Source: a virus. Taken from it: 41,192 bases of DNA. The stretch covers positions 1 through 41,192 of IMG/VR virus record IMGVR_UViG_3300045284_000220; one strand, written 5' to 3'. Positions 18,631 through 41,192 of the stretch are shown in pieces; positions within the stretch are counted from its first letter, which is position 1, and every line of letters begins with the position of its first letter. A program made the position numbers and the translations under genes. Under the pieces are notes generated by a model that was not told the origin of the DNA, did no database searches, and saw nothing but the letters and a program-made list of their open reading frames with translations.

Positions 18631-19137
18631 TTATTCACCGTGTGCGCCTTCGCGGCAAAACTCGGTGCCCTGGAAATTTAGTCGCGCAAATTCGCCGTAT
18701 TGTTTGGATGCGGCATTATCATAAGCGAGCGCTGCGGCGCGTTCGGAAATGAAGCTGCCAAGATACTGTTGATGGCCCAACGGATCCTTGATTTGGGCGC
18801 ACCATTTCAGACCATCGCGTCGGCGATAAACGCCCTTATATCGTGACGTTCCGATGATCTTCGGACGATTGGCATTCTGTTGTGACTGAGTGGCTAACCT
18901 AAGATTTTCGCGCCGGTTATCGAGCTTGTTTCCGTTCGCGTGATCGACGGTAGATGTGTCGGGCGCAAGTAAAATAAGCCGGTGCATCAACACCTTCATG
19001 CCGCCGCGGCGTCCCCACAAATCACAGATCGCGTAGCCCTGCGCGTTGCGATACCAATGCCGCTGCGATAGCCAATGATGATCGACCTCGGATACGAGGA
19101 CGTCGCCGCCATTGGCTAAAGGAATCGTTCGCGTCAT
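18631..19137 (-). CDS. HNH homing endonuclease with AP2 DNA-binding domain
   Basis: The 168-residue protein has an HNH_3-type motif (about 60-90: VDHANGNKLDNRRENLRLAT) and a C-terminal AP2 domain (about 98-155: YKGVYRRRDGLKWCAQI, then LGSF and AALAYDNAA). Such HNH-AP2 proteins are free-standing homing endonucleases that cut an allele lacking the insertion. Its ATG overlaps the nuclease stop (ATGA). Its base composition is visibly less GC-rich than the flanking genes, which fits recent acquisition. It splits an otherwise continuous recombination set. Confidence 0.9.
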   Translation of the reverse strand: MTRTIPLANGGDVLVSEVDHHWLSQRHWYRNAQGYAICDLWGRRGGMKVLMHRLILLAPDTSTVDHANGNKLDNRRENLRLATQSQQNANRPKIIGTSRYKGVYRRRDGLKWCAQIKDPLGHQQYLGSFISERAAALAYDNAASKQYGEFARLNFQGTEFCREGAHGE

Positions 19138-20367: not shown

Positions 20368-20634
20368 CTATTTGCCTCCGCGGGGGGGGGGGGAACCTTG
20401 CCCCTCTCCCGCGCGCGCGAAGCCCCAAATTTGGGCCGGAACGGCGCCGTCGGTGATCTCTTCCAGCCGAAAAGCATGTGCCAGGGATGGGGTCGCTTGA
20501 TGGCGTTCCCAACGGTACCACGTACGCTCGGAGCAGGGCACAAGGTCGGCGCCGGATCGGGCCGGTACTTTGCCGCGCTCGCGCCACTTGCGGAGCTCGT
20601 CGCCACCAGAATTGCCGCGCCGCCGCGTGTTCAT
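20368..20634 (-). CDS. Small Cro/CI-type HTH regulator (88 aa)
   Basis: The ATG at 20634 has AGGAG nine bases upstream. The core SERTWYRWERHQATPSLAHAFRLEEIT has the Trp-Arg-Trp-Glu recognition-helix pattern of small Cro/CI-type DNA-binding proteins (lambda-repressor fold). The C-terminus is a Gly/Pro tail encoded across a run of 12 C on the coding strand (20382-20393). It is the first leftward gene and faces the palindrome at 20787-20806, so it is the likely regulator of the divergent promoters. No separate CI-size repressor was seen. Confidence 0.75.
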   Translation of the reverse strand: MNTRRRGNSGGDELRKWRERGKVPARSGADLVPCSERTWYRWERHQATPSLAHAFRLEEITDGAVPAQIWGFARAGEGQGSPPPRGGK

Positions 20635-20781
20635 GGGCACAGTTCTCCTATTGCTGGCTCGCGCGCACGGCGCGATCAACGGGGTCGGTGGGGGTCAGAC
20701 TAGACGTGAACCTCGGTTTTCGTTTTTTTTTGATGATGACGCATATGTCCGGTACCCGCAAGAGGGGGTTGACAACAAATT

Positions 20782-20809
20782 TTGAGATAGGACACGGGTG
20801 TCCTATAAA
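20782..20809 (+). promoter_or_regulatory. Early rightward promoter with embedded operator palindrome
   Basis: TTGAGA (20782-20787) and TATAAA (20804-20809) match five of six bases each of the sigma-70 -35 and -10 boxes, 16 bp apart. The spacer region is almost filled by a perfect 9+2+9 palindrome, ATAGGACAC-GG-GTGTCCTAT (20787-20806). A bound regulator would block polymerase directly. The small HTH protein at 20368 is the obvious ligand. Confidence 0.75.
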
Positions 20810-20975: not shown

Positions 20976-21069
20976 CGGTCGGAGATTACCCGAGGCAACC
21001 TCACCGGCTTCCGGCCATCCCGGGGGCGGCGCATGAACAGACACCCGGCTTTTCGATCCTTCGTGTGAC

Positions 21070-21642
21070 ATGGCGCCACAGCCGCACCATGCGCCCGCGC
21101 CGCTCGTCAGCGAGCAAACCTTACTCGGCGCGCTGCTGCTTCATCACCACTCATGTTCTCGGGTAATTCGATTCCTGCGCCCGGAACATTTCTCTCATCC
21201 GGCGCATCGTCAAATTTTCGAGATCATCGGCGGCATTGTCCGAGACCACTCGGTCGCAAATCCAGTCACCGTTCTACATGCTGCGCGCGATCTGCAAGTG
21301 CTCGACGAAATAGGCGGTGCTGCATACTTAACGCAACTTGCTGAAGCTGCCGCAAAGCACGAGGACGTTAAACGGCTCGCGCGCCAACTCGTCGAAATTA
21401 CTACTGATGACAGAACGCGCTCGGGCAATTGGTCGGCTTGGTACAACGACTATCTTAATTCGGATGACTGGCGAGCGAAGCGGCGCCTCGTTATGGACCG
21501 CTGCGGCGGCCTTTGTGAAGGTTGCCGAAATTCGACCGTCACCGAAATTCACCATTTGACATATGAGCATGTTGGTGCCGAGTTCCTTTATGAGCTCGTC
21601 GGCCTTTGCGGTGACTGTCACTTGCGGGCGCATCAAAAATGA
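21070..21642 (+). CDS. DnaB N-terminal domain fused to an HNH endonuclease
   Basis: Residues about 12-100 match the N-terminal helical domain of replicative helicase DnaB: EQTLLGALLL, then RVIRFLRPEHF, HRQIFEII, and LDEIGGAAYLTQLAEAA. The RecA-like ATPase domain that should follow is absent. After a linker, residues about 125-190 form an HNH nuclease (YLNSDDWRAKR, then CEGCRN, EIHHLTYEHVG, LVGLCGDCHLRAH). The DnaB N-domain normally binds primase and helps form the hexamer, so the fusion could target a nuclease to, or interfere with, the replication machine. The gene is first in the rightward block and is overlapped by the next gene as ATGA. Confidence 0.85.
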   Translation: MAPQPHHAPAPLVSEQTLLGALLLHHHSCSRVIRFLRPEHFSHPAHRQIFEIIGGIVRDHSVANPVTVLHAARDLQVLDEIGGAAYLTQLAEAAAKHEDVKRLARQLVEITTDDRTRSGNWSAWYNDYLNSDDWRAKRRLVMDRCGGLCEGCRNSTVTEIHHLTYEHVGAEFLYELVGLCGDCHLRAHQK

Positions 21643-22385
21643 CCAAGCCGCCAGCCCCGCCTGTGCCGCGTGACATCGATCTGCGCGGTATGGCTTGGAT
21701 GCCGTACTACGGCGATCAATTACTGCGGAGCGAGCTCAATTCGCGGGTATCGGATGCGGGATATCGGGCTGCACATAATCTTTGGTGGGCTTCGTGGCAT
21801 CAAGTTCCTGCCGGTTCACTTCCCGACGATGACAACGTCTTGACACGCCTCGCGGATCTCGGACGGAACGTTCGCGCGTTCCGCCGAATCCGGGACGAAG
21901 CTCTGCATGGTTTCGAAAAATGTGCCGATGGTAGACTATACCACCGCTTTCTGTCCGACATCGCCCTACGTCAGCATAGCCGGCTCGCGCAGGCTAGAAG
22001 TCGCAAACACAAGCACTTAGCGCGTTCGTCCGACGGAGAGAACGCGGACGGAACGCGGACGGAACGCGGGCGGAATGCGTCCGGAACGCGACCGTCTCGC
22101 GCGGAGAGAGACTCAGAGAGAGACTCAGAGAGAGAAGGTTCTTCGGTTCTTCGAACCTCAGAACGTTCGACGCCTTCGGCGTCTCACCCCGCGCCTAACG
22201 GCGCGGGACGCGCGCGGGGCCGCGCGCGAGCGACGCCGGCTTTTCGTGACAAATCGCCAGTGACGAAGCTCTACGAGGGAGCGCTCGATGCAGCAGACGC
22301 CGTCACCGAACGCCAGGAAGCAAGCCAACCGCGAGATCGCCGCAATGGTGGCGCGGCTGCTAAGCCACTACTGGACGGCCGATGA
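21639..22385 (+). CDS. DUF1376-type replication protein
   Basis: The N-terminal 105 residues (MAWMPYYGDQLL, then AAHNLWWASWHQVPAGSLPDDD, RIRDEALHGFEKCADGRLYH) match the DUF1376 family found before phage replication genes. The C-terminal half is low complexity: repeated GTRTERGRNASGTRP and SERDSERDSERE segments, then basic residues. The family is thought to act in replication initiation, but I know of no firm biochemistry. Its start overlaps the upstream stop and its end overlaps the next gene by 98 bp, an unusually long overlap. Confidence 0.82.
   Translation: MTKPPAPPVPRDIDLRGMAWMPYYGDQLLRSELNSRVSDAGYRAAHNLWWASWHQVPAGSLPDDDNVLTRLADLGRNVRAFRRIRDEALHGFEKCADGRLYHRFLSDIALRQHSRLAQARSRKHKHLARSSDGENADGTRTERGRNASGTRPSRAERDSERDSEREGSSVLRTSERSTPSASHPAPNGAGRARGRARATPAFRDKSPVTKLYEGALDAADAVTERQEASQPRDRRNGGAAAKPLLDGR
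22031..22138 (+). repeat. Short tandem repeats inside the DUF1376 gene
   Basis: Two simple repeats are visible: GGAACGCG-type 8- to 10-mers (about 22040-22090) and GAGAGAGACTCA repeated near 22103-22138. Both are coding and lie in the linker, so they may expand or contract. Confidence 0.7.
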
Positions 22386-22707
22386 TCCCGCGCCAGCCCG
22401 GAAAGCGCAGATCGAGGACTGGATTGAAGATTTGTCCGAGTTTGGCCCGGAGTTGGTCAAGCAGGCGATTACTGAATTTCGCCACAGCGGATCGCGCAAT
22501 CGCCCGGTGCCCGGCGATATTCGGACGCTTTGCGTTCAGATCGACAACAACCGCCGCGAACGACAGGCCATCGCCGATCAGCGCCGCGAGCGCTGGCCGC
22601 AATGGCTCGAAGAAACCTGGGGACCGGAGCCCGAGGGGCCGCGCCTGCGTGCCGAAGCGATGGCACGCGACCGCGTCAAAACCGAAACTTCACCGACAGA
22701 GGAGTGA
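22288..22707 (+). CDS. Replication protein, helicase-loader-like (139 aa)
   Basis: The pattern is IAAMVARLLSHYWTADDP, a Trp-Ile-Glu-Asp-Leu segment, ELVKQAITEFRHSG and RPVPGDIRTLC. This resembles the G39P/DnaI-type phage helicase loader N-domain, in which a helix ends in a (P/G)DIR motif. The C-terminal tail is highly charged. With no helicase gene in the window, it would load the host DnaB. It starts inside the preceding gene and may be translated by coupling. The similarity is judged by eye. Confidence 0.6.
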   Translation: MQQTPSPNARKQANREIAAMVARLLSHYWTADDPAPARKAQIEDWIEDLSEFGPELVKQAITEFRHSGSRNRPVPGDIRTLCVQIDNNRRERQAIADQRRERWPQWLEETWGPEPEGPRLRAEAMARDRVKTETSPTEE

Positions 22708-22715
22708 TTGAAATT

Positions 22716-23132
22716 ATGGACGCCGCACTGTCACCGGAACAATCCTCGGCGCTGCGCTCGTACGCAAACCGCGTCGTCAACCTGCACGAGGAACGCGACA
22801 CGTTGAACGGCGATATTCGCGAAACCTACAAGGAAGCGAAGGGCGCCGGCTTCGACACCACGACGTTGCGCGAGATCGTCCGCGAGCTCCGGATGGAACC
22901 GGAGGCCCGGGAGTCGCGGTACTCGCTGCTGGACACCTATCGCGCAGCGCTCGGGCTGCTGGTCGGAACGCCGCTCGGCGAGGCGGCAATGGAGCGCGCC
23001 GAGCGGGAGCCGCCGGTTGCGGCGCGCCCGCGGCCGTTCGCGCAGCAGCCGATCAAGGGGCGTGGCCGCGGTCGTCCGCGCAAGCCGCGGCCGATGGACT
23101 TCCTGCCGGATGAGGCCGCCGGCACGGCATGA
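22716..23132 (+). CDS. GapR-like (DUF2312) protein with AT-hook tail
   Basis: Residues about 6-95 fit the DUF2312/GapR coiled-coil pattern: ALRSYANRVVNLHEERDTLNGDIRETYKEAKGAGFDTTTLREIVR. In Caulobacter, GapR binds overtwisted DNA ahead of replication forks. Here a Pro/Arg tail containing GRGRGRPRKPRP adds an AT-hook. ATG at 22716 is preferred, with GAGGAG upstream; GTG at 22704 is an alternative. Lying between a loader-like protein and a nuclease, it probably binds phage DNA during replication. Confidence 0.8.
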   Translation: MDAALSPEQSSALRSYANRVVNLHEERDTLNGDIRETYKEAKGAGFDTTTLREIVRELRMEPEARESRYSLLDTYRAALGLLVGTPLGEAAMERAEREPPVAARPRPFAQQPIKGRGRGRPRKPRPMDFLPDEAAGTA

Positions 23133-25037: not shown

Positions 25038-25145
25038 CCTCGCGCGCGCACGCGCAGGCAGCCGCGCTTGACGAACAAATCCCGGCTTTGGTATCGCTTC
25101 CGCTACTGGTCGCGGATTGGGTTTTGCGTCCGGACTTTCAATCAA

Positions 25146-25541
25146 ATGGCAAATCGTTCTCCGGTCTATCGGCCGCTGCGGCGGCCGCCGATGATCGCCG
25201 CCGGCGCTCGGCCGGACGGCGGATTCTATCATTCGCCAGCATGGCGCAAGCTACGCCGACAGGCGTTGATCCGCGACGGCTACCGCTGCGTGATCTGCCG
25301 GCGCGATATCTCGGGCAAAGGAATGGCCCGCGTCGACCACATTAAACCGCTGCGCACCGATCCTGACCTAGCGCTATCTCTCGCTAACCTGCGCTCACTG
25401 TGTGCGAACCACGACAATCAGAGCCATCGGGAGAAGGGGCGCTACTCTGGCGCTCCGCGAGAAGAATTCTTTGTGATCACCGGCTGCGACGCGCGCGGCG
25501 TGCCGCTCGATCCGGCGCACCACTGGAAGCGGCAAAATTGA
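25146..25541 (+). CDS. HNH endonuclease
   Basis: The 131-residue product from ATG 25146 has the HNH core FYHSPAWRKLRRQALIRDG, then CVICRRDISG, RVDHIKPLRTDP, and LRSLCANHDNQSHREKGR. Metal-binding Cys and His are in place. Phage HNH proteins of this type often sit near terminase genes and are needed for packaging in some phages, though here it precedes the ParB-like and methyltransferase genes. A TTG at 25068 would lengthen the protein; no clear ribosome site supports either. Confidence 0.85.
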   Translation: MANRSPVYRPLRRPPMIAAGARPDGGFYHSPAWRKLRRQALIRDGYRCVICRRDISGKGMARVDHIKPLRTDPDLALSLANLRSLCANHDNQSHREKGRYSGAPREEFFVITGCDARGVPLDPAHHWKRQN

Positions 25542-25641
25542 CCCCCGGTCCGCAATTCTCGTTCTTACGCGCGGATCCCAACGCCGCTTGTTACGCCGCC
25601 TCGCCGGAATTTTTGCCCCTCCCCCCCCGGGGTCCTATCAA

Positions 25642-26178
25642 TTGACAGCTTGGCCTGCTGACAAGGTTGTGCGTCGTCCGATTGCTGAGCCCGTTCCTTA
25701 CGCGCGCAACGCGCGGTTACATTCCCCGGCGCAGATCGCGCAACTGGCTGCGTCTATCCGCGAGTGGGGCTGGACGATGCCGGTATTGATTGATCCGAAG
25801 GGCAATCTAATCGCCGGTCATGGTCGCGTATTAGCGGCGCATCAACTCGGTCTAACCGAAGCGCCGGCTATGGTTGCGCGCGGATGGTCAAGCGCGAAGA
25901 TCCGCGCTTATCGTATCGCTGACAATAAGTTGGCGCTCAACTCGGCATGGGACGAGGAACTACTCGGCCTTGAGCTATCCGACCTACGCGAGCTCGGAAC
26001 GTTTGACCTAGAGCTAACCGGCTTCGAGATGGCGGATATCGACAAGCTGCTAGCCGGCGACCAAGCGCCGGGCGAATTCTCATCGTACGACGAGTCGATT
26101 ACGACGACGCACACATGCCCGAAATGTGGCTTTCGGTGGTCGGGCACCGCGACGGCGAGCCGTGCCGCGGCCGAATAA
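25642..26178 (+). CDS. ParB-like protein with zinc-ribbon C-terminus
   Basis: The domain IAEPVPYARNARLHS, AASIREWGWTMPVLI, NLIAGHGRVLAA and AYRIADNKLALNS is the ParB/Srx-like fold often found joined to or beside DNA methyltransferases. The C-terminus carries CPKCGFRWSG, half of a zinc ribbon. No usual ATG is available, so TTG at 25642 is proposed, with TTG at 25588 as a longer alternative. It is followed within a few bases by the C5 methyltransferase, so it may guide or regulate that enzyme. Confidence 0.75.
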   Translation: MTAWPADKVVRRPIAEPVPYARNARLHSPAQIAQLAASIREWGWTMPVLIDPKGNLIAGHGRVLAAHQLGLTEAPAMVARGWSSAKIRAYRIADNKLALNSAWDEELLGLELSDLRELGTFDLELTGFEMADIDKLLAGDQAPGEFSSYDESITTTHTCPKCGFRWSGTATASRAAAE

Positions 26179-27484
26179 GCCGCCCTACCAAATCCCGCTG
26201 ATGCGCGAGATTACGCGCTCGCCGCTAAACGGTCAGCGCGTCGTCTCGTTGTTCTCCGGTTGCGGCGGATCTTCGCTCGGCTACCGGATGGCCGGCTACA
26301 AAGTGCTGTGGGCAAACGAGTTCATTCCGGCGGCGCGCGAGACGTATCACGCCAATTTTCCGGACACGGTGATTGACGCCCGCGATATCCGCAGCGTTAC
26401 CGGCGCCGAGATATTGGCAGCAACCGGCCTCGCCGCCGGCGAGCTCGATATCCTCGACGGCTCGCCACCCTGCGCGAGCTTTTCGATGGCCGGCAAAAGG
26501 CAGCACCATTGGGGCAAGGTCAAAAAATACTCCGACACGACGCAGCGCACCGACGACCTGTTCTTCGAGTATGTCCGATTGCTGCGCGACCTACAGCCGC
26601 GCCGGTTTATCGCCGAGAATGTCAGCGGACTCGTAAAGGGTGTCGGAAAAGGGTTCTTTCTCGAAATACTCGCCGGGCTCAAAGCGGCCGGCTACCGTGT
26701 TGAGTCGCGGCTGCTCGACGCGCAATGGCTCGGCGTGCCGCAGGCCCGCCAGCGAATTTTCTTCGTCGGCGTGCGGAGTGACGTCGACGGCGCGCCCGGT
26801 TTTCCGAAGCCGCTGCCGTATCGCTACAGCGTCCGCGACGCGTTGCCGTGGATTGCCGGCGTCGGTGACGTACGCGAAACCGGATTCCATCGGGCCGATG
26901 GCATGACGCCGGCGAGCCAACCATCCCCGACGATTATGGCTGGCGGTGGCTATGGCATGAATACGTCCCAGTTTGGCGTTGAGCCGGCGCCGACGATCCA
27001 GACGCACGGCCGGCGCGGAACCGAAAGCGAATTCACGGTTGAAGCCGAAGCGAGCGCGAACGGTTACGCGGTCGGCCGAGAGCTCGACAAGCTCGCCGCC
27101 GGCGGGCAATCGAGCCGCTATTTTTCGTTGACGCGTGCGCCGATCAACGGACCGTCGCCGACCGTTACCGCGACCGGCGGCGACGGTCATACGGCTTCGG
27201 TTGCGCATCCGACCGAGCGCCGCAAATTCTCGATTGCCGAGCTTCGCCGCATCTGCGGCTTTCCGGACGACTTCGTCCTGACCGGCACCTATGCCCAGCA
27301 ATGGGAACGGCTCGGCCGCGCGGTTCCGCCGCCGATGATGGCCGCGCTCGCTCGCGCCAATCTCGACACAAAAAAAGGGGCCGGCGAACCGGCCCCGATT
27401 AGGACGCCGCGGCACTCTAGCCGGCGAAATACCGCGTCCGGCCGTCAACCCGCTCTTTCCGAACCGCAAAGGGCGCCGCTTTGA
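26162..27484 (+). CDS. DNA cytosine-5 methyltransferase
   Basis: Motifs run in the standard order: I, LFSGCGGSSLG (about 30-40); IV, DGSPPCASFS with the catalytic Cys near 104; VI, AENVSG (about 151); VIII, QARQRIFFVG; and a motif IX/X region with GRAVPPPMMA near 393. Such phage enzymes methylate the genome against host restriction. GTG at 26162 is proposed; ATG at 26201 is possible. The C-terminal tail reads through a terminator hairpin and overlaps the leftward gene by 68 bases, so the last 45 residues may be unimportant or an artefact of a late stop. The target sequence cannot be read from the protein. Confidence 0.9.
   Translation: MPRPNKPPYQIPLMREITRSPLNGQRVVSLFSGCGGSSLGYRMAGYKVLWANEFIPAARETYHANFPDTVIDARDIRSVTGAEILAATGLAAGELDILDGSPPCASFSMAGKRQHHWGKVKKYSDTTQRTDDLFFEYVRLLRDLQPRRFIAENVSGLVKGVGKGFFLEILAGLKAAGYRVESRLLDAQWLGVPQARQRIFFVGVRSDVDGAPGFPKPLPYRYSVRDALPWIAGVGDVRETGFHRADGMTPASQPSPTIMAGGGYGMNTSQFGVEPAPTIQTHGRRGTESEFTVEAEASANGYAVGRELDKLAAGGQSSRYFSLTRAPINGPSPTVTATGGDGHTASVAHPTERRKFSIAELRRICGFPDDFVLTGTYAQQWERLGRAVPPPMMAALARANLDTKKGAGEPAPIRTPRHSSRRNTASGRQPALSEPQRAPL
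27370..27396 (-). terminator. Leftward terminator after the H1-like gene
   Basis: On the minus strand GGGGCCGG-TTCG-CCGGCCCC is followed by seven T. A perfect 8-bp stem with a TTCG loop and T run is a strong intrinsic terminator. It lies inside the methyltransferase coding sequence on the other strand. Confidence 0.9.
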
Positions 27485-27968
27485 TCGCCCGCGAGATCGT
27501 CGCACCGGCTTTCTTCCAGCCGCCGAGCGCTTCGCAGACCTCGCGCTCGTTGCAACCGTCTTTCCGCTGCATCAAGCGGTGGATCGTTGCGAACGTCGGA
27601 CTAACTTCGCCGCTAGCGGCCTTGCGGCCAGCCGTAGCAGGCGCTTTCGCTTTCCGGCCGGTCTTTGTAGCGGCCGGCGCTTTCCCCTGCTTGGCGGCCT
27701 TCCTAGCCGGCTTGGCGGCCTTGCCGCTAGCAGCCTTGCGGCTGGCCGTAGCGCGCGCGGCCGGCTTCCGGCTACTCCGGCCCGGCTTTTTGGCTTCCAC
27801 CTGCTTGGCGGCCAGCGTAGCCGGCTTGCCGGCGGCTTTCGCCGGTTCCGCTTCCGCGGCCAGCGGCGGAACGATCGCCGGCTCGTCGCGCGCGGCGCTC
27901 GCCGCGATCATCGCATCGAGCTCCGCGGTTTTCGCCGCAACGTCGAGCGGCTTCCTGGTTCTAGGCAT
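27417..27968 (-). CDS. Histone H1-like protein with winged-helix-like C-terminus
   Basis: The 183-residue protein has an N-terminal acidic-to-Ala-rich part, then Lys/Ala/Arg-rich repeats such as KAASGKAAKPARKAAKQGKA (about 60-120), resembling bacterial H1-like nucleoid proteins. A short ordered domain (about 125-183) contains TIHRLMQRKDGCNEREVCEALGG and ends VRKERVDGRTRYFAG, which looks like a winged-helix module. It probably binds DNA. It is the only leftward gene in the 21-41 kb rightward block and has its own terminator. A lysogenically expressed morphon or a packaging-related protein are alternatives. Confidence 0.75.
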   Translation of the reverse strand: MPRTRKPLDVAAKTAELDAMIAASAARDEPAIVPPLAAEAEPAKAAGKPATLAAKQVEAKKPGRSSRKPAARATASRKAASGKAAKPARKAAKQGKAPAATKTGRKAKAPATAGRKAASGEVSPTFATIHRLMQRKDGCNEREVCEALGGWKKAGATISRAIKAAPFAVRKERVDGRTRYFAG

Positions 27969-28036
27969 ATGTTCAAATCTCTTGCTGTCGGCGCCAGGAG
28001 CGGCGCCGGCGCTCTATCTCTTGGGCCGCGCAGCTA

Positions 28037-28738
28037 ATGTCCAGGGCTAGTCCGAACGGCGGCCAGTCGCCGGCTTTCGCGATCCCGGTCAACTGGACGT
28101 TCCGCGATGCCGGCGTTGCGGCCGGTTTCGACCGGCACGTTCGCGAGCAATTGCCCTGGTATGACCACGCGACCGGCGCCGTCGCCCATGTCGCGCGGCA
28201 TTATCTGCCGCAAGGCGGCACGGTCTACGATCTCGGCGCGGCAACCGGCAACATCGGCCGCGCGCTCGCGCCGGCGCTCGAAGCTCGCGGCGCGACGCTG
28301 ATCCCGGTCGAAGCATCGCCGGAAATGGCGGCGCTATATGCCGGACCGCAGCCGGAAAATCTCGTTGTTGCGCCGGCCGAAGAATTCGCACTCGACTATT
28401 TCGATGTCGCGATTGCGTTCCTGACCCTGATGTTTATTCCGCTCGGCTCGCGCCGCGCGCTACTGCAGAAGCTCGTTAGGTACGCGCGGCCCGGTGGCGC
28501 CGTGATCGTCTTCGACAAATGCGAAGCGGTCCGCGGCTACGCGGCAACCGTTCTGTGGCGACTGGCGCTCGCCGGCAAAGTCGCCGCCGGTGTCGAGCCG
28601 GCCGAGATCGTCGCTAAGGAGCTTAGCCTGTCCGGCGTGCAACGACCGTTTGATCCCGCGCTGCTCGACCATCTCGGAAAGCCGGCGATCGAGTTTTTCC
28701 GCTTTGGCGAATTCGCCGGCTGGCTGATCGAGACATGA
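28037..28738 (+). CDS. CmoA-like SAM-dependent methyltransferase
   Basis: The order WTFRDAGVAAGFDRHVREQLPWYDHA, then VYDLGAATGNIGRALAP (SAM motif I), VEASPEMAALY, and ALDYFDVAIAFLTLMFIP fits the CmoA group, which makes carboxy-SAM for tRNA wobble uridine modification. Phage copies are not widely characterised. Whether the substrate is SAM, tRNA or another molecule cannot be told here. It precedes the terminase genes and overlaps the small subunit start (ATGA), so it is expressed with the packaging genes. Confidence 0.8.
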   Translation: MSRASPNGGQSPAFAIPVNWTFRDAGVAAGFDRHVREQLPWYDHATGAVAHVARHYLPQGGTVYDLGAATGNIGRALAPALEARGATLIPVEASPEMAALYAGPQPENLVVAPAEEFALDYFDVAIAFLTLMFIPLGSRRALLQKLVRYARPGGAVIVFDKCEAVRGYAATVLWRLALAGKVAAGVEPAEIVAKELSLSGVQRPFDPALLDHLGKPAIEFFRFGEFAGWLIET

Positions 28739-40474: not shown

Positions 40475-41192
40475 ATGTCGGATAATCTAAGCGTTAGCAT
40501 CAGCGGCGATAGTACGAAGCTGCGGGCAGATCTGAAGCTCGCGGAAGCCTCAGTCAAGTCTCTCAAAAAAGAGTTCACTGCTTTAGCCGATGAGGCGATC
40601 AAGACCGGCGACAAGACGAAGGTAATCGCATTCACGCCGAAGGTTCAGGAAGCCGAGAAGGCGGTCGTCAGTCTACGCAAGGAGATTGTCGGTACACAGG
40701 TCGCGACCGGCGGCGTGTTCAAGCGGCTACAGGAGCTCGCGCACGGCTCGCGGCCGCTCAATCGGATCGTCCGAGAATTTGGCGATGCATCCAAAGCGGC
40801 CGACATCTTTGCCGGTAGCATAGGAGCCGCGTTCGGCGGCTTTACCGGCGGCGTCATCGGGACGGCGGTTGCGAAGGTAGCCGGTAGCATCGCCAGCATG
40901 ATTGACGACACATCAAAAAGGCTGGTCGAGCTCAGACAGCTCGGCGCCGAGATTGGTGTCAAGCCGATCGCAGCGCAGGCCGCGCAGGAATTGGCGGTGA
41001 AGGCCGGCGTCTCCGCTGAAGACGCGGCAACCGCGATGCAGAGCCAAGCCAAGCTCCTCGAGGAAGCGCGCAATGTATCGACACAAACCGGCGGCCCGCT
41101 GGCGGGAATGCCGACGGTCTATAAAGGTGGTGGGGTTGCCGCTATTACCGAAGAATTCAAGAATCTGGGTACCGCTGCCAAATCCGCAGGCG
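40475..41192 (+). CDS. Tail tape measure protein, N-terminal part (continues at 1)
   Basis: The gene starts at ATG directly after the short chaperone gene. The first residues, MSDNLSVSISGDSTKLRADLKLAEASVKSLKKEF, are a typical tape measure N-terminus with a coiled-coil tendency. Two short hydrophobic stretches follow (IFAGSIGAAFGGFTGGVIGTAVAKVAGSIASM, about 110-145), seen in many tape measure proteins. The frame continues at base 1; the last 212 bases duplicate the start of the window. Confidence 0.9.
   Translation, partial: MSDNLSVSISGDSTKLRADLKLAEASVKSLKKEFTALADEAIKTGDKTKVIAFTPKVQEAEKAVVSLRKEIVGTQVATGGVFKRLQELAHGSRPLNRIVREFGDASKAADIFAGSIGAAFGGFTGGVIGTAVAKVAGSIASMIDDTSKRLVELRQLGAEIGVKPIAAQAAQELAVKAGVSAEDAATAMQSQAKLLEEARNVSTQTGGPLAGMPTVYKGGGVAAITEEFKNLGTAAKSAG
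40981..41192. repeat. Terminal direct repeat, right copy
   Basis: These 212 bases repeat 1-212 with one difference (A at 41065 for C at 85). See the left copy. In the tape measure protein the difference is Glu against Asp. Confidence 0.95.

Follow-up and report, generated by a model that had tools for sequence, protein, structure and literature searches.

A DnaB N-terminal domain joined to an HNH nuclease domain in the replication operon of a phage record with no helicase motor

The fusion gene and its operon

The window analyzed here is the whole viral record of 41,192 nucleotides. On its forward strand, positions 21070..21642 hold a coding sequence of 190 aa with an ATG start, in which the N-terminal globular head of DnaB (residues 9-110; 21094..21399, same strand) is followed by an HNH domain (residues 120-190; 21427..21639, same strand). 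The head, which ends before most of the helical hairpin, was identified at the level of profile models: residues 11-108 match PF00772 (DnaB_N) with an E-value of 7e-22 and 77.9 bits, relative to a cut-off of 23 bits, and DnaB_N is the sole Pfam match in the N-terminus. The best NCBIfam model for the protein is PRK09165 (5.6e-20), which we take to be the alphaproteobacterial DnaB group, followed by TIGR00665. An AlphaFold model, computed from an input alignment of 48 DnaB_N and 8 HNH relatives, presents a mean pLDDT of 86.7. Its residues 5-107 superpose on the DnaB N-domain 1b79 (Z 13.4; 2.4 Å over 96 residues) and its residues 116-190 on the HNH nuclease of phage GVE2, 5h0m (Z 10.6; 1.9 Å over 75 residues). 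The original prediction, made from the letters of the DNA, had described a DnaB N-domain followed by an HNH domain and missing its RecA-like ATPase, and both the domain searches and the model confirm this architecture.

The fusion gene opens a rightward replication operon, as had been proposed. It is preceded by an 11-aa leader ORF read from the sequence (MNRHPAFRSFV; 21033..21068, forward strand), located after a G-rich stretch that resembles a ribosome-binding site; the TGA of this leader lies 1 nt before the fusion ATG, so translational coupling is likely. The next gene (21639..22385, forward strand) overlaps the fusion gene by 4 nt and encodes a DUF1376 replication protein (PF07120, 1.1e-8; phrog_22470 replication protein, 2.5e-27), for which no close relative was found in the viral contig collection. 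Five 11-bp direct repeats inside this gene (22040..22094, forward strand; unit GAACGCGGACG) form a putative iteron origin and are followed by a 12-bp GAGAGAGACTCA repeat. Tandem repeats in mid-gene were also found in the DUF1376 genes of EBPR podovirus 2 (L216) and Ssp-JY42 (L054), and none were detected within the fusion gene. Because its gene carries iterons, as in these two other DUF1376 phages, the DUF1376 protein is likely an initiator of the lambda-O type whose own gene contains the origin. This weakens the earlier suggestion that the fusion protein might itself be the replication initiator.

Further downstream, a 139-aa protein with a possible later start (22288..22707, forward strand) follows DUF1376, as a small protein does in Sulfitobacter phage pCB2047-C, and is a candidate helicase loader; this pair of DUF1376 and small protein is accompanied by no annotated helicase in the stretch examined of pCB2047-C and of EBPR podovirus 2. 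A GapR-like nucleoid protein (22716-23132; PF10073, 9.9e-19) comes directly after the replication genes. The presence of GapR and the affinities of the DnaB_N domain would fit an alphaproteobacterial host, and the plasmid matches include Rhizobium, Sinorhizobium, Bradyrhizobium and Phaeobacter. Between the divergent operons, a near-perfect 20-bp palindrome (ATAGGACACGGGTGTCCTAT; 20787-20806) adjoins a small HTH gene (20368-20679, reverse strand) and is probably a repressor operator. A scan for sigma70-type promoters returned no match. Elsewhere in the record, a cluster located before the terminase (25588-28738) encodes a ParB-like nuclease, a DNA cytosine methyltransferase and a CmoA-like SAM-dependent methyltransferase.

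We observed the same GC3 (0.56-0.59) in the DnaB head, the HNH half and the DUF1376 gene, below that of most other tabulated genes of the record (0.71-0.82). The equal GC3 of both halves and of DUF1376 supports one old common module.

The ATPase domain of DnaB (PF03796) was found nowhere in the 41-kb record, even at E≤10. This rules out a frameshifted or split dnaB gene with an ATPase half downstream, the alternative raised with the original prediction, and agrees with its statement that no phage helicase is present. Both ends of the record (1-1639 and about 40475-41192) lie in one tape-measure-like gene, with no overlap or in-frame join between them, and the genome looks permuted and nearly complete, with a small gap. 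A helicase gene hidden outside the record is therefore unlikely and the absence is meaningful: a phage without its own motor must use the DnaB of its host.

The DnaB head and the HNH domain

Residues 9-110 align end to end with chromosomal DnaB of the Alphaproteobacteria type at 34-44% identity, and the homology ends at about residue 110, which corresponds to about residue 111 of G. stearothermophilus DnaB. The globular head is complete, and the helical hairpin and linker beyond it are not present; the helix modeled at residues 98-117 is of low confidence (pLDDT 60-70) and represents at most part of helix 7. Relative to DnaB helicases (TIGR00665/PRK09165), the protein presents the same head fold and its gene sits in the same slot, upstream of DUF1376, but the hairpin beyond its first turns, the linker and the RecA-like ATPase are missing and the HNH domain stands in their place. 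Of the 22 near-invariant DnaB_N positions, the head keeps 17; the five lost are E13, A14, A17, N26 and Y103. For comparison, helicases deviate at a mean of 2.0 such positions, and 11 of 140 deviate as much as the fusion head or more. The retention of 17 of these columns argues against decay of the head. In the DnaB_N tree the branch of the window is long, with a support of 0.04. The head might derive from either a phage dnaB or a host dnaB, its identity being highest to chromosomal types.

The loss of the hairpin bears on primase binding. In G. stearothermophilus DnaB, the DnaG contact residues I119 and I125 sit in the longer hairpin helix, and a construct comprising the head and helix 7 binds DnaG poorly (PMC2761005). 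The region holding their equivalents is absent from the fusion protein. The loss of this region, together with the poor DnaG binding of such constructs, makes it very probable that the protein no longer offers a primase platform. The primase binding considered in the original prediction is weakened accordingly, as is a main role as a primase mimic or primase binder. The fold of the head is also common to the helicase-binding domain of DnaG (5z51, Z 8.1; 1t3w, Z 6.6).

The HNH domain matches several PHROG HNH families (best match phrog_119, 5e-8). Its match to Pfam PF01844 is below the cut-off of that model, and its assignment to an HNH subfamily is clear in the comparison with 125 loci. The domain carries a zinc ribbon (C149xxC152/C180xxC183) together with H161-H162, E175, H184 and H188; the cysteines C149, C152, C180 and C183 and the histidines H161, H162, H184 and H188 are invariant in the alignment of the subfamily (A10). 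Glu175, read from the sequence at the position of GVE2 N109, replaces the central Asn of the motif and is nearly invariant across the subfamily. The statement that all metal ligands are present was thus right for the CxxC pairs and the histidines and slightly overstated for the motif Asn. In the GVE2 nuclease, N109A loses 60% of the nicking activity and H93A 94% (PMC5304195). The domain resembles this nuclease (GVE2 HNHE; phrog_119/144 type) by its paired CxxC motifs, H161-H162, H184/H188 and the superposition reported above, but GVE2-type nucleases adjoin the terminase, carry no DnaB head and have Asn where the fusion has Glu.

The N-termini of the HNH relatives are very varied, and about one third of the 125 loci present a ribbon-like cysteine pattern upstream, in place of DnaB_N. 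Two BFVD HNH proteins (159 and 191 aa) match the fusion protein in part, over an aligned length that fits mainly the HNH domain. The record encodes two more HNH proteins, for a total of three: one of HNH_3 + AP2 homing-endonuclease type with low GC3 (18631-19137, reverse strand) and one of terminase-associated type (25068-25541, forward strand). We rejected the candidate assignment of the fusion as a defense protein, for which PADLOC gave only a marginal match to DruF (E 0.017).

Relatives and gene neighborhoods in other phages

A profile scan yielded 80 viral DnaB_N loci. All encode long proteins, of 415-682 aa, in which an ATPase was detected or could be seen, and none has a fused HNH domain. 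Conversely, DnaB_N was found in the same ORF at none of the 125 loci of the HNH subfamily. No match covering 80% of the query was found in 50,697 phage and 72,556 plasmid records, and searches of three partly overlapping genome sets (249, 385 and 15 genomes, adding up to 649) returned only full DnaB or HNH-only matches. DNA similarity over the whole module was found in no phage, and the open-access literature yielded no DnaB_N-HNH protein. The claim that no protein of this architecture has been described therefore holds for the literature and collections searched. The one short exception in the genome searches, an apparent orphan DnaB_N (L094), proved to be a chromosomal dnaB cut by the end of its contig. 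At two other loci (L136, 2869-4506; L003, 4890-6269), the partner of DnaB_N is not the DnaB motor but a divergent ATPase of RepA-like type, a further case of shuffling of this domain in phages.

The neighborhoods of related genes bear on the origin of the fusion. Seven viral contigs (L131, L133, L139, L166, L171, L178/179 and L193) carry a full dnaB directly upstream of DUF1376, the slot occupied here by the fusion gene, and Ssp-JY42 presents the gene order dnaB-HNH-DUF1376. Moreover, HNH genes of the fusion's subfamily overlap the 3' end of dnaB-type genes by 1-4 nt in L199, L254 and a group formed by L273, L274, L276, L280, L285, L286 and L293, so that this pairing recurs in at least three phage groups. 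These abutting pairs and Ssp-JY42 present the same components in the same order, but as separate genes with an intact helicase, and the HNH of Ssp-JY42 belongs to another subtype. In the abutting pairs, the dnaB genes are not closely related to the DnaB_N of the window. Among the neighborhoods listed for prophage loci in the 385 genomes of the class of G010, none had dnaB beside DUF1376.

The adjacency of dnaB with DUF1376 and with HNH in other phages suggests that the fusion most likely arose by in-frame deletion. The ancestor would have carried a phage replicative-helicase gene in an initiator operon of the order dnaB, HNH, DUF1376, and a single in-frame deletion that began where the DnaB hairpin starts and ended where the HNH domain starts would have joined the head to the adjacent nuclease. 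Neither an intermediate of this deletion nor a relative with the same fusion was seen in our searches, which counts against this reading. Overall, the original prediction stands for the architecture, the missing motor and the position in the operon, less so for primase binding and initiation; the nick at the host replisome that it suggested may be right, and an origin from adjacent genes was absent from it.

Possible roles of the fusion protein

Our best guess for the function is a nickase whose HNH domain is tethered to the DnaB ring of the host or to its replisome. We give a probability of about 0.45 to the reading that combines a deletion-fusion origin from dnaB with a head serving as a protein-binding handle, which would place the nickase at the origin complex or fork. 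Having lost its motor, the phage would depend on host DnaB, and the handle would act by head-head contact with host DnaB or by contact with the initiator or loader of the phage. The tethered HNH domain would then nick DNA and either interfere with the replication of the host or help the phage to replicate and recombine. By the neighbor and fusion argument, the dnaB-HNH pairs and the fusion, taken together, suggest that DnaB and this HNH subfamily are linked in function and that the nuclease works together with the helicase or at the fork. A bolder version appears doubtful to us: the phage would have made a guided nickase out of its replicative helicase, with the head assembling together with the DnaB ring of the host or the initiator complex and bringing the HNH domain to active forks.

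The closest tested analogue is Gp16 of the S. aureus phage NM1, which combines a NinB/Orf-like domain with an HNH domain. This early nickase binds RecA of the host and represses host replication, and replication of the phage requires it (PMC12817073). Fusions of HNH-bearing domains with Orf, Erf, Rad52, RusA and MutS have been described (PMC4118853). The DUF968/Orf-HNH proteins, including Gp16, resemble the fusion in their replication or recombination N-domain, their C-terminal zinc HNH and their position in an early operon near dnaB, dnaC or ssb (PMC4118853, PMC12817073), but their N-domain is Orf/NinB, their HNH belongs to another subfamily, and DnaB_N is all that Pfam recognizes at the N-terminus of the fusion. 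Several observations count against a tethered nickase. The hairpin that drives dimerization of the DnaB N-domain is mostly missing, and the isolated E. coli head is a monomer in solution and a dimer in crystals (PMC2761005), so that the head may hold on to DnaB only weakly. In addition, Glu replaces the middle Asn of the HNH motif, the HNH of Ssp-JY42 is of a different type and the abutting dnaB genes are not close kin.

The main rival to the tethered nickase is that the HNH domain alone matters, in packaging or recombination or as a selfish nuclease, and that the head is the leftover 5' end of a deleted dnaB gene, without function, which would merely supply a promoter-proximal start and solubility. 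The varied N-termini of the relatives indicate that the HNH module needs no fixed partner, and the near-invariant surface positions E13, A14, N26 and Y103 are lost from the head. However, the head is open, in frame and confidently folded, with most of its near-invariant positions in place, and the gene opens the replication operon and is coupled to that of the initiator; we regard this explanation as unlikely, though a serious contender. A dominant-negative or decoy protein, whose head would bind host DnaB, the loader or DnaG and block host replication with cutting as a secondary activity, seems improbable. The identity of up to 44% to chromosomal Alphaproteobacteria-type DnaB would favor it, as would the fold common to the helicase-binding domain of DnaG, by which the head could compete for DnaB, and the Gp16 catalytic mutants, which lose growth inhibition only in part (PMC12817073); on the other hand, the main DnaG-contact helices are missing and the zinc and catalytic His positions of the HNH domain are intact.

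Alternatively, this one metagenomic contig might carry an assembly chimera, or a dnaB gene that broke only recently, in place of a stable natural gene. In favor of this, the fusion is known from a single record, with no second copy in any collection searched. Against it, the frame is open across the junction, GC3 is alike in both halves, the gene shares 4 nt with the one that follows and a coherent phage operon lies on either side; we regard this alternative as very improbable. We consider least probable of all that the fusion protein is the initiator, an origin-nicking Rep that recruits host DnaB. It is the first gene of the operon and its nuclease domain could nick an origin, but the adjacent DUF1376 protein fits an initiator, its gene containing iterons like that of lambda O, and DUF1376 cassettes occur without the fusion gene in pCB2047-C, EBPR podovirus 2 and Magia. 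To our knowledge, HNH is not a known type of rolling-circle initiator, which also counts against a Rep.

The pairing of a replication or recombination domain with HNH is a known theme, and the literature and collections searched yielded no other combination of DnaB_N and HNH. Here, the N-domain of a replicative helicase has outlived its motor and is re-used beside a nuclease. Should the bolder version, the guided nickase, be correct, it would give the first nuclease with a targeting domain derived from DnaB, and the dnaB-HNH pairs that recur in other phages would encode helicase-coupled nickases. Together, the fusion and these pairs suggest that the replicative helicases of phages are functionally linked to an HNH subfamily that is common but unexplained.
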